Shown piece by piece: positions 39,590 through 61,829 of a stretch of DNA of 64,000 nucleotides. Within the stretch, counting starts at the first letter, position 1, and each line of letters begins with the position of its first letter. This DNA comes from Pseudomonadota bacterium (lineage in GTDB: Bacteria; Pseudomonadota; Gammaproteobacteria; Xanthomonadales; Ahniellaceae), in the NCBI GenBank assembly GCA_022843465.1, contig JALHNO010000002.1, positions 1 through 64,000 on the forward strand, written 5' to 3'. The notes beneath the pieces are model-generated. The model was given only the letters and a program-made list of their open reading frames with translations. It was not told the origin of the DNA and did no database searches. The position numbers and the translations under genes are program-made.

Positions 39590-39835
39590 AGAGCGGGGCT
39601 TGCCCCGCTGCGGTTGATCTGGCTTGTGCTCCTGTGGAGCGGGGCAAACCCCATAGGCGTCAGCCTGTTTTTCCTGGCGAATGATTGCCCTGTCCAACGC
39701 GCGGCTGTCGATCATCCGGCCTTGGTTTGCGCTCGCCCCGAAGGGGCGTAAGTCCTGGTGTGCCGGGCCAAAATTCAGGAACCAGCCAAATAGGTCAACG
39801 CCTATGGGGCAAGCCCCGCTCTGCAACAGCAACGG
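39590..39835. repeat. REP-like palindromes with an intact 161-bp MITE-like element
   Basis: Outer palindromes of the dispersed family (AGCGGGGCTTGCCCCGCT near 39594; GGGGCAAGCCCCGCTCT near 39806) enclose an element at 39649-39809. Its ends are inverted repeats: CCCCATAGGCGTCAGCCT (39649-39666) against AGGTCAACGCCTATGGGG (39792-39809). A 13-bp palindrome GCCCCGAAGGGGC lies at 39735-39747. A second copy at 48496-48895 has the same flanks but is interrupted exactly at this palindrome. No coding content. The rest of 39375-39979 holds no gene that I can support. Confidence 0.85.
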
Positions 39836-39979
39836 CGACTTCAACGCCAGCACACGAAGCTCCGATTTTCTGCGCTGGCTTTGTTGCAGGGCATCTCTGT
39901 GAGATGCCGTGCTGAATTTGCCGGGGTGCTCGGATGGCATCACGCTGCGATGCCAGACCGGTGCAATACCCAAGCGACG

Positions 39980-47527: not shown

Positions 47528-48403
47528 ATGCAAGACTTCGATAGACCAGGTGAGAACGAATCGCTGACCGCGCTGTTGACGCTTTCCGATCCTGCTGTCC
47601 TGAGTTCGGAACAGGATGCCCAGTCGATCCTGTTTCACTACCCGGCGGCCAAGCTGGGTCTGCGTTCGGGCATTCGATTCTGTGCCGGGAAGCTGGTCGA
47701 AGCGGTTCGCAATCTGCATCGCGATGGTCTGTCGAGTCAGCCCTGGGTGGTGGCCAGCCCACCTCGTTTTGTGTTGCCGGGCGCGGCCAATCTGATGGCC
47801 AGGGAGTTGACGCAGTTGCTTGGCACGGCTTGGGATCTCGCGCCGACGCTGGCCGAACTGTGGCTGGCCACGGCGGCTGAGCACATCGAAGTGGAAGATT
47901 CACCGGGTCTCTACGCGCAGGCGGCGTTTGCAGCCCGCATCAAGGAGCGGTCGCGACTGCACCAGCGACTCAAGCCCCTGGCGGTGGCGCAATTTCAGGG
48001 TCGCCCGGTACTTTTCGTCAATGACATCCATGTCACCGGCGCGCAGCAGCATTTCATGCGACAGGCACTGCAAGCCGCGGGTGTGGCGCACATCCACTGG
48101 TTGTATCTGGTGATTGTTCCGCCCGAAATCGGCCGCGACCATCCGCAGATCGAGTACGCCCTGAACTACTCGCGCCATGGCTCATTCGACGATTTCGCAG
48201 AGCTGCTGAGACATGCCGATATCGAATTCACCGCGCGCTGCATCCATCGACTGTTCGACCACGCGGAATCCGAACTCCATGCGTTCCTGGATTCTCTGCC
48301 GAGCGAGCGCCGGCAGGAGCTGATCGGGCTGGCCGCGCAGGAAGCGCAGTGCGAGGGAAGGTCGGCGGAATACTGGGCAAAGCTGCAGCGGCTCTCCGAA
48401 TGA
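47528..48403 (+). CDS. phosphoribosyltransferase-fold protein
   Basis: A 291-aa soluble protein. The motif GRPVLFVNDIHVTGAQQHF (about residues 158-176) matches the PRPP-binding loop of type I phosphoribosyltransferases (hydrophobic strand, D/E-D/I, then TG). An upstream strand WVVASPPRFVLPGAANLMA could form the companion loop. The C-terminal 80 residues are helical and charged. The substrate cannot be named; related PRTase-like proteins occur in stress-associated clusters. It lies between the heme-motif gene and a repeat cluster, with no operon partner. Confidence 0.65.
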   Translation: MQDFDRPGENESLTALLTLSDPAVLSSEQDAQSILFHYPAAKLGLRSGIRFCAGKLVEAVRNLHRDGLSSQPWVVASPPRFVLPGAANLMARELTQLLGTAWDLAPTLAELWLATAAEHIEVEDSPGLYAQAAFAARIKERSRLHQRLKPLAVAQFQGRPVLFVNDIHVTGAQQHFMRQALQAAGVAHIHWLYLVIVPPEIGRDHPQIEYALNYSRHGSFDDFAELLRHADIEFTARCIHRLFDHAESELHAFLDSLPSERRQELIGLAAQEAQCEGRSAEYWAKLQRLSE

Positions 48404-48420
48404 AGCAACCGGCTGAGCGT

Positions 48421-48485
48421 GATCCCGGGCTTGACCTTGATCCTGATCGCGATCCCGATCCCGATCTTGATCTTGATCTTGAAGA
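48421..48485. repeat. degenerate TTGATC-type hexamer tract
   Basis: A run of imperfect hexamers (TTGATC, CTGATC, CGATCC, TTGATC) begins 18 bp after the PRTase-fold gene and ends at a family palindrome (AGCGGGGCTTTCCCC, 48484-48499). The same hexamer-plus-palindrome arrangement recurs near 48.9, 58.6 and 61.5 kb. Confidence 0.75.
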
Positions 48486-48594
48486 GCGGGGCTTTCCCCA
48501 TAGGCGTTAGCCTAATTTTCCTGGCAAATGATTGCCCTGTCCAACGCGCAGCTGTCTATCATCTGGCATTGGTTTGCCCTCGCCCCGAAGGGGC

Positions 48595-48834
48595 ACATCA
48601 ATTCAGCCCAGGGCAACGCCCTGGGAAGGCGGGCAGATCATCCCGAAGCCCTGAAAGGGCGATTCAGTTCCCTGCAACCAAGGTACACCGTTCTTCTTGC
48701 TGAATACCAGATGCACATATAAACGCGCCAGCGATTGAGGCATCGATTTGACTCGCCCTTTCAGGGCTTTTCGGGTGACGCGCGACCATACCCAGGGCGT
48801 TGCCCTGGGCTGAATTGATGTGCCCCTTCGGGGC
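48595..48834. mobile_element. 240-bp insertion with perfect 44-bp inverted repeats
   Basis: Relative to the empty copy near 39.74 kb, 240 bp have been added after the palindrome GCCCCGAAGGGGC. The inverted repeats 48582-48625 and 48791-48834 are exact reverse complements over 44 bp. A second inverted pair (48646-48662 and 48753-48769, built on GCCCTGAAAGGGC) is nested inside, around a transposase stub. This is the arrangement expected of a REP/RAYT-derived or IS200-like non-autonomous element. Confidence 0.85.
48669..48743 (-). pseudogene. N-terminal remnant of an IS200/IS605-type (Y1) transposase
   Basis: The minus strand encodes MPQSLARLYVHLVFSKKNG followed by VPWLQG, which closely resembles the first 25 residues of Y1-family (HUH) transposases. 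The similarity stops there and the sequence runs into the nested inverted repeat. The HUH pair and catalytic Tyr, which lie further on in full-length proteins, are absent. It cannot be active. Confidence 0.75.
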
Positions 48835-48930
48835 GTAAGTCCTGGTGTGCCGTGCCAAAATTCAGGAACCAGCCAAATAGGTTGACGCCTATGGGCCTTG
48901 CCCCGCTGCGGTTGATCTTGACCTTGATCC

Positions 48931-48998
48931 TGATGTTGATGTTGATGTTGATGTTGATGTTGATGTTGATGTTGATGTTGATGTTGATGTTGATGTTG
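48931..48998. repeat. tandem hexamer repeat (TGATGT)11
   Basis: Eleven perfect copies of TGATGT run from 48931 to 48996, preceded by degenerate hexamers (TTGATC TTGACC TTGATCC). The tract is bordered by family palindromes at about 48896 (CCTTGCCCCGCTGCGG) and 49021 (GCAGCGGGGCAAGCCCCG); the latter touches the stop codon of the VanX-like gene. The tract would be prone to length change by slippage. Confidence 0.95.
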
Positions 48999-49039
48999 TC
49001 CACTCGGGGACAACGTCAAGTGCAGCGGGGCAAGCCCCG

Positions 49040-49861
49040 TTACAGAATCTCCGCGATGCGCGGGGGTTCCTCGATATAGCCGTACCAGGCCGCGACCGGC
49101 GCCGAGGCGCCAAGATGACGACGCATTTGCACGTAGAGCTGGTTACCCAGATCGTAATGCCAGAAAACCCAGGGTGAGTTGACCCAGTCTTCCGATTCCA
49201 GAGCCCAATGCGCCAGCCGTCGGTGCCAGAGTCGCGGGTCGTCGGCTGCGATATTCCCGAGCGCCAGCTGCCGCTCAAAATAGTCATTGTGGGATGTTTC
49301 GGACATCTCTTCGAAATTCGAGCCCATATCGACCTGTTCGCGGGTGGCGAGCGAGCGCAGGGTGATGTCCACCGCCGCACCGGTCGAATGCGCCGGCCAG
49401 GCATCAGAGTTGTGCGGGCTGAAGCGTGCGGTGTTGCGAACGAATTGATTGGCATAGGCATGGCAGGCGTCGTCTGTCGGCATATCCAGCGACGCCCGGC
49501 CCTGCTCGAAATAGAAATCGTACAGCGCCTGCTGACATTCGACCGAACGATAACCGTCCAGCACCAGCAACTCGTAGCCATAGGGGCGCAGCCGTTCGTT
49601 CACGCGCGCCAGGCTTGTTGCCGCGCCCGCGCGCAGCCAGGTGTCGCGGCGGCTGCCGCGCAATGGCCGGTGATAGGGCGGGTTGCCGCCATCGCTGCGG
49701 GCGTGATACGAGTCGTAGGCCACATTCACGGTGTCGAGCAACACCAGTGGCTCCTGTGAGCGCGGATCGGTCGGATCATGCGGAACGCTGCCATACGCCT
49801 TCCCGTAGCGGGCCGGATCGATGATCGGAATGCGATGGGACAGTTCCTGCAGGGCGATCAT
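49040..49861 (-). CDS. VanX-like (M15) dipeptidase family protein with altered active site
   Basis: A 273-aa protein of the D-Ala-D-Ala dipeptidase type. The zinc motif is visible as AHSTGAAVDITL (H158, D165) with the third ligand H235 in WVFWHYDLGN, and VLDGYRSVECQQALYDFY is also typical. In VanX the catalytic Glu sits three residues before the last His; here that position is Val232. It may therefore be inactive, use another base, or belong to a different subgroup. No signal peptide, so cytoplasmic, as for VanX. It diverges from the hydrogenase-like operon, and its stop codon lies within a repeat. Confidence 0.8.
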   Translation of the reverse strand: MIALQELSHRIPIIDPARYGKAYGSVPHDPTDPRSQEPLVLLDTVNVAYDSYHARSDGGNPPYHRPLRGSRRDTWLRAGAATSLARVNERLRPYGYELLVLDGYRSVECQQALYDFYFEQGRASLDMPTDDACHAYANQFVRNTARFSPHNSDAWPAHSTGAAVDITLRSLATREQVDMGSNFEEMSETSHNDYFERQLALGNIAADDPRLWHRRLAHWALESEDWVNSPWVFWHYDLGNQLYVQMRRHLGASAPVAAWYGYIEEPPRIAEIL

Positions 49862-61427: not shown

Positions 61428-61805
61428 GGAGCGGGGCTTGCCCACAGATCCTGGCTTTGATCCTGATGTTGACCTTGATGTTGAGGTTGATGCTGACGTT
61501 GATGTTGTAGAGCGCGGCTTGCCGCGCTGCGTTTGATTTTTTCTCGCATTGATGAAGATCAATAGCTTCAGGAGCGAAGGTAAAGAGCGGCGCGGCAAGC
61601 CACGCTCTATGCAATCCCCCAGGTGACAAGAGCATGAATCAAGCGCAGCGGGGCAAGCCCGCGCTCTACAACATCAACGTCAACATCAACGTCAAGAGCA
61701 GCGGGGCAAGCCCGCGCTCTACAACGTCAACATCAACGTCAAGAGCAGCGGGGCAAGCCCGCGCTCTACAACATCAACGTCGACGCCAACTTCGACTTCG
61801 ACTTC
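61428..61805. repeat. cluster of palindrome/hexamer repeats with three tandem units
   Basis: Family palindromes occur near 61431, 61510 and 61590. Three direct units then start at 61645, 61698 and 61745, each GCAGCGGGGCAAGCCCGCGC followed by TCTACAAC and AACRTC hexamers. The periods are 53 and 47 bp, differing by exactly one hexamer. The array ends in a TTCGAC hexamer tract (about 61789-61806) close to the multicopper oxidase stop. No gene in 61325-61829. Confidence 0.88.
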
Positions 61806-61829
61806 AAGAGAAGGGCAACAGGCGAACCG

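Follow-up and report, generated by a model that had tools for sequence, protein, structure and literature searches.

In Haloquadratum, small repeats with terminal inverted repeats (TIRs) lie nested in the palindromes of IS605-type elements, and deletion of the core between near-terminal palindromes turns PATEs into terminal-only elements with one palindrome, according to the published account (PMC3119063). In TIRtrons and TIRYTs, the Y1 gene is flanked by inverted repeats that in part belong to dispersed repeat families, and the description of these systems also presents REP dimers inside palindromes and GTAG-type REPs that carry GTAG on one side (PMC3733652). It is well known that mobile DNA inserts into REPs (PMC1525189). 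The published account of TnpA Y1 subclass 1.2 gives Y---Q--HH with DH[IV]H and WQ as its printed signature, and describes it as lacking REP-type hairpins and as occurring mainly in Cyanobacteria and Bacteroidetes (PMC6006769).

We compared these systems with a TIR element that occurs twice in a window of 64,000 nucleotides (the whole stretch of DNA that was analysed), once as an ‘empty’ 161-bp copy with one hairpin (39649-39809, plus strand) and once as a filled copy with a nested second element (48496-48895). The earlier note took this pair as a captured insertion event. Our measurements instead favour, with somewhat better than even confidence, a reading in which the empty copy and the window's filled copy are deletion derivatives of an old composite, rather than the before-and-after of an insertion.

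Alignment of the two window copies shows that they are related outside their palindromes, with 85% identity between the left parts (39616-39747 and 48463-48594) and 90% between the right parts (39735-39820 and 48822-48907). The two parts of the empty copy also match the filled copy in the genome search (E-values of 3e-33 and 1e-23). The extra DNA of the filled copy, placed at the palindrome by the earlier note, is exactly 240 bp long (48595-48834) and follows directly after GCCCCGAAGGGGC, with GTAAG on its other side; the copy lengths given before differ by 239 rather than 240 bp, because the earlier end points lay one base apart. The window contains GCCCCGAAGGGGC three times, with one occurrence in the empty copy (39735-39747, plus strand) and two in the filled copy, compared to a mean of 0.24 in shuffled sequences. 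The boundaries of the extra DNA are less sharp than had been claimed: GCCCC/GGGGC is present at both edges, and an ambiguity of 5 bp remains.

On the plus strand, the filled copy begins with the left half of the TIR element (48496-48581), which starts with the terminal inverted repeat CCCCATAGGCGT, and continues into the left copy of the outer hairpin GCCCCGAAGGGGC (48582-48594). The 240 extra bp, assigned to the minus strand, consist of two inverted hairpin repeats around a Y1 transposase gene that has lost about 370 bp internally. Within them lie the left middle hairpin CCCAGGGC-AAC-GCCCTGGG (48607-48625), of a type that flanks Y1 relatives in other phyla, the left inner hairpin GCCCT-GAA-AGGGC (48648-48660), the right inner hairpin (48755-48767), the right middle hairpin (48791-48809) and the right copy of the outer hairpin, GCCCCTTCGGGGC (48822-48834), all read on the plus strand. 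Between the inner hairpins, 24 codons of the transposase N-terminus (MPQSLARLYVHLVFSKKNGVPWLQ) remain on the minus strand (48672-48743), too short a remnant for a Pfam match. The right half of the TIR element (48835-48895, plus strand) ends in the inverted repeat ACGCCTATGGG. When folded as single strands, shuffled sequences fall far short of the filled copy (z = -16), an outcome to be expected for nested inverted repeats. An Rfam search of the whole window returned nothing but the SRP RNA and a tRNA. Hexamer arrays of the TTGATG and TTGATC types adjoin the filled copy (48914-49010 and 48427-48487), and comparable arrays are found at C13:36010-36294, C10:83167-83272, C9:470-628 and C7:82690-82770.

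Both copies are framed by half-sites of a GTAG-type REP palindrome: AGCGGGGC on the left (39638-39645 for the empty and 48485-48492 for the filled copy) and GCCCCGCT on the right (39813-39820 and 48900-48907). An intact site of the kind that holds both copies, AGCGGGGCTTGCCCCGCT, lies at 39592-39609 (plus strand), and AGCGGGGCNNGCCCCGCT occurs at 41 places in the genome, compared to 0 for a reversed-pattern control. In the fetched stretches there were 34 such or near-identical sites, most of them with GTAG or a near variant on one side. The TIR element is present at many genomic places, each time between the halves of such a palindrome. The ends shared by the two window copies are those of one element; their shared outer flanks, also pointed out before, are no evidence of a shared locus, because they are halves of a common REP palindrome. 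The element sits in both orientations relative to the surrounding REPs, in one sense for the window's filled copy and a C12 copy and in the opposite sense for the empty copy on contig C13, and several copies have mixed REP flanks that fit neither sense. A check for target-site duplications found edge repeats of 5-12 bp, which are part of the palindrome itself.

Other palindromes accompany these sites. A GGCATCTC-GAGATGCC hairpin lies at 39885-39915 of the window, and hairpins of this type form long alternating arrays at a short Y1 match on contig C28 (L056); they are apparently a second REP system in this genome. A cluster of REP-like palindromes with hexamer tracts, which form inverted repeats of 42-56 bp, occupies 61435-61814 of the window. 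At another Y1 match (L054, G000:C16:12814-16071), alternating hairpins of two stems (GGCGTCGC.. and GGCCGCGC..) stand on both sides. Y1 genes were considered as the source of the GTAG-REPs and set aside, as no AGCGGGGC palindromes were found within about 1.5 kb at any of the 8 Y1 matches inspected, out of 16. We take the repeats described here to resemble those of Xanthomonadales.

A search of the window's genome (5.18 Mb in 45 contigs) yielded 120 matches. Of the 19 places aligned, 5 contain an empty copy (about 161 bp), 8 a filled copy and 6 a fragment that is truncated or stops where the contig ends. Genome copies and window alignment agree in showing one TIR element, made of 85 + 62 bp around one hairpin and bounded by inverted repeats of 18-30 bp, with and without a nested second element at its palindrome. 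The insert, normally about 610 bp long, is best seen in the longest filled copies, where an outer, a middle and an inner hairpin are followed by a minus-strand transposase gene and then by the same three hairpins mirrored. Core lengths form a series of about 610 bp, about 393 bp (a pair on contig C17), 240 bp (the window copy) and none; the two C17 copies share an internal deletion that differs from that of the window copy. Every junction in the 19-copy alignment, 11 on the left and 11 on the right, is identical in position and orientation. The pair in the window was read before as an insertion caught in the act, but its 240 bp are the remnant of a core of about 610 bp, whose orientation and exact point of attachment do not vary between the junctions. 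Since the core always has one orientation, unlike the TIR element within the REPs, we infer that the core was acquired once and that the composite then spread.

A terminal-repeat search of the genome gave no further family beyond the 19 copies and five tandem left ends on contig C17; these left ends, 46 bp each, precede a filled copy (L171, G000:C17:52100-52350). Beyond this genome, the TIR element was found in 0 of 60 relatives. With the whole composite as query, and with about two candidates scored per genome, 12 of 397 other genomes of the order gave matches, and at that scoring depth these fell in hairpin repeats or short transposase pieces and never in the TIR halves. Nine other genomes of the family, searched with the region 47528-49861, contained none of its genes; the same search gave one hexamer-array match in the only genome of the same genus and REP matches in one other.

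The transposase gene is broken in every composite copy long enough to judge, and frameshifts are common to the filled copies. Differences between the filled copies in this dead gene are spread evenly over the codon positions (10.2, 9.5 and 8.1% of cells), while the differences between their consensus and an intact relative on contig C25 fall mostly on third positions (32, 21 and 82 sites). Together with the shared frameshifts, these patterns indicate that the gene was once functional and was copied after breaking. The even distribution further indicates that the copies drifted after the gene broke; the hairpins were nevertheless kept. Hairpin letters never deviate from the consensus in the set of 14 filled copies and fragments (0 of 977), whereas deviations affect 5.4% of the core letters in spacers and dead gene (225 of 4174) and about 8.7% of the letters in the flanks; 53 hairpin changes are expected at the core rate, and the nominal P-value of 1e-23 is overstated because letters are not independent. 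The simplest reading is a candidate mechanism whereby only copies with intact hairpins multiplied, through an enzyme acting in trans; gene conversion or a role in the host may explain the invariance as well. The outer hairpin is also carried by stand-alone repeats, exactly in 14 of 17 distinct cases, with one change in two and two changes in one. The GCRAG tail behind the palindrome of the empty copies recurs in 5 of these 17, in favour of core deletion, and the tails of the stand-alone hairpins are GCRAG and others, with no GTAG. On contig C3, tandem units of about 199 bp each contain one three-hairpin repeat (L037, G000:C3:32964-33661).

Hairpins that stay invariant amid drift could also have been kept by a host function, such as the termination of transcription between genes, in which case the family would be old repeats shuffled by gene conversion and not mobile. 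The window's filled copy indeed sits between convergent open reading frames (47528-48403 on the plus strand and 49040-49861 on the minus strand). Moreover, the five full composites (L021, L025, L027, L028 and L029) have 57 informative sites without tree signal at any distance; the four-gamete test fails in 933 of 1596 pairs of informative sites, about as many as random splits would give, and close pairs do no significantly better. The copies behave as if they exchanged sequence in very short tracts, and some exchange between copies is likely. However, the copies lie in unrelated contexts between REP half-sites, so that dispersal is needed, and termination requires neither three different mirror-paired hairpins nor TIRs. 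We consider maintenance by host function without mobility to be highly improbable.

The core has an intact relative, a 150-aa Y1 protein that is encoded twice on contig C25; hairpins of the same types accompany it, and nothing there matches the TIR halves. The protein contains the Pfam domain Y1_Tnp (PF01797, E = 4e-24), with the DHVH (HUH) and YIADQ tyrosine motifs. It scores 62.5 bits against the NCBIfam IS200/IS605 model (cut-off 55) and 17.7 bits against the RAYT model NF047646 (cut-off 80). Its matches among solved structures are weak and bear the name transposase (2fyx, 2xm3 and 2xma, with E-values of 0.006 to 0.009). The core has the marks of an IS200/IS605 element, namely a Y1_Tnp domain with HUH and tyrosine motifs in the C25 copy and three hairpins near each end. 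The whole composite departs from that class, which has no terminal inverted repeats, by the presence of its TIRs.

In its motifs, the C25 protein agrees with subclass 1.2, as Y---Q--HH, DH[IV]H and WQ are all present. The account of this subclass is that of Quentin and colleagues. A scan of public genomes with the intact protein gave 236 relatives, and the best 80 of these (48-67% identical) come mostly from Verrucomicrobia and Planctomycetota, with some from Armatimonadetes and Chloroflexi. All three motifs, DHuH, WQ and Y---Q--HH, are found in 68 of these best 80. Of the 71 relatives with enough sequence, 25 have the middle hairpin on either side of the gene at a distance of no more than 200 bp, compared to 0 of 51 in a control offset by 1 kb; any GC-rich hairpin within 150 bp downstream is found in 48 of 76 relatives, while the offset controls gave 2 to 8 among 58 to 67. 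The link between hairpin and Y1 gene is common but not universal, the remaining relatives having no hairpin or a sequence that is cut. The protein resembles subclass 1.2 as published in its length of 150 aa and in its DHVH, WQ and Y---Q--HH motifs, and differs in that three-hairpin repeats flank the gene and that most named relatives belong to Verrucomicrobia or Planctomycetota (PMC6006769). This link across phyla between a Y1 group and a three-hairpin repeat contradicts the published description of a subclass without hairpins. In the open PMC literature, within the portions of text accessible there, we found no paper that links this Y1 subclass to three-hairpin repeats.

Three lines of evidence bear on the direction of change between the empty and filled forms. 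First, the empty copies have as their palindrome the outer hairpin of the core itself, which fits deletion of the core better than a pre-insertion target. Second, the loop of the empty-copy hairpin is GAA, the left-hairpin type, in 4 of 5 copies and TTC, the right-hairpin type, in 1 of 5 (the C13 copy); these are the two products expected from deletion between GGGGC or GCCCC arms. Third, over about 145 flank positions, mean pairwise differences are 8.1 between empty copies, 18.9 between filled copies and 14.8 between empty and filled copies (computed from the 5 empty copies and from 7 filled ones, all but the left-truncated C17 copy, with the 6 fragments left out). The filled-filled distance exceeds the empty-filled distance in 99.65% of 2000 bootstraps, and 1 of the 792 possible five-copy subsets is as tight as the empty set, namely the empty set itself. 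Removing the two filled copies that diverge most leaves the order unchanged (16.4 filled-filled and 13.0 empty-filled). The lower diversity and the bootstrap order point to the empty copies as the younger group, so that these flank distances favour, without amounting to proof, a younger empty form. A flank tree was dropped as proof of the nesting because its support was too low, and the distances and bootstraps were used instead.

Alternatively, the 161-bp copies could be pre-insertion targets, with the Y1 core having entered the palindrome once or several times and the window copy having later lost part of it. Core and TIR halves do have independent relatives, the core occurring without the halves on contig C25 and in other phyla, and hairpins and REPs are known insertion targets (PMC1525189; PMC3733652). 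Among the filled copies, the distances between cores do not follow those between flanks (r = -0.02; Mantel P = 0.53), and the flanks are more diverged than the cores (12.4% versus 7.2%). The lack of correlation counts against co-amplification, and repeated insertion of a younger core would give the same pattern; both this and the exchange of sequence between copies weaken the age argument. However, a symmetrical palindrome should accept the core in both orientations, whereas the 11 + 11 junctions show one; the target would need to have possessed beforehand a hairpin identical to the core's own end; and the empty copies are less diverse and nearer to the filled copies than the filled copies are to each other. 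We rate pre-insertion targets as unlikely, while giving them appreciable weight. The empty copies are best read as core-deleted, terminal-only derivatives that later spread, and the original nesting was probably one old insertion.

The deletion reading brings the family close to the PATEs and terminal-only IS605-type elements of Haloquadratum walsbyi, which have near-terminal palindromes, no working transposase of their own, core-deleted copies with one palindrome, and TIR repeats nested with IS605-type palindromes (PMC3119063). Near-terminal palindromes and transposase-free copies are likewise found here. Unlike the outer element here, PATEs are without terminal inverted repeats; they belong to another domain of life, and the likeness drawn here is one of organization; and deletions were seen there between strains, whereas here they are inferred (PMC3119063). 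By analogy, a process of this kind would be at work in the present case too, with the TIRs as an additional layer. TIRtrons and TIRYTs share the Y1 gene between inverted repeats, and the present elements differ from them in having two nested sets of inverted repeats and a Y1 that is not RAYT-like (PMC3733652). REPs and REPtrons are similar in their dispersed palindromes and in a Y1 gene flanked by inverted hairpin repeats. They differ from the present elements, whose core hairpins have no GTAG foot, which have several gene copies and a three-hairpin unit, and in which we found neither a RAYT-type transposase nor a GTAG/GTGG foot beside the hairpin.

The 161-bp form by itself looks like a MITE, being short, bounded by terminal inverted repeats and without coding capacity. 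Its small size and its TIRs of 18-30 bp would suit a classical MITE that depends on a DDE transposase, in which case the Y1 core would be a bystander. However, this genome holds no partner transposon or other element with the same TIR: all 15 exact CCATAGGCGTNANNCTG matches belong to the family or to its left-end fragments, and the weaker matches found elsewhere hardly differ in level from those of the reversed-pattern control. There is also no clear target duplication, as the edge repeat belongs to the palindrome. We give a DDE-driven MITE next to no weight.

Returning to the deletion reading, the family would be a non-autonomous composite mobile element, a TIR element with a nested Y1 core. 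The core may have landed in or fused with the TIR element once, after which the composite would have multiplied as a passenger, its broken copies being moved in trans; the intact Y1 on contig C25 is the leading candidate for the enzyme. Successive deletions would have shortened the core from about 610 bp to about 393 bp (the C17 pair), to 240 bp (the window copy) and to none. The final deletion, between the two GCCCC/GGGGC hairpin arms, would have removed the core together with one hairpin, and the resulting 161-bp form with one hairpin would then have spread as the youngest group. Combining these steps with the motifs of the enzyme, we tentatively propose a joint reading, rather unlikely to hold in all its parts, in which a terminal-only remnant of an IS200-like composite, with one hairpin, is itself mobile and depends on a trans-acting Y1 enzyme that has subclass 1.2 motifs; the three-hairpin recognition repeat of this enzyme would be conserved across several phyla and newly tied to this enzyme group. 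If the joint reading is true, nesting in palindromes followed by loss to one palindrome would be a general cycle, seen here in the layers of GTAG-REP, TIR element and Y1 core. If the deletion reading is right, about a dozen and a half places in one genome would preserve a graded series from gene-bearing core to one-hairpin relic, the birth of MITE-like repeats from IS200-like elements would become directly testable, and an apparent empty site can be a scar.
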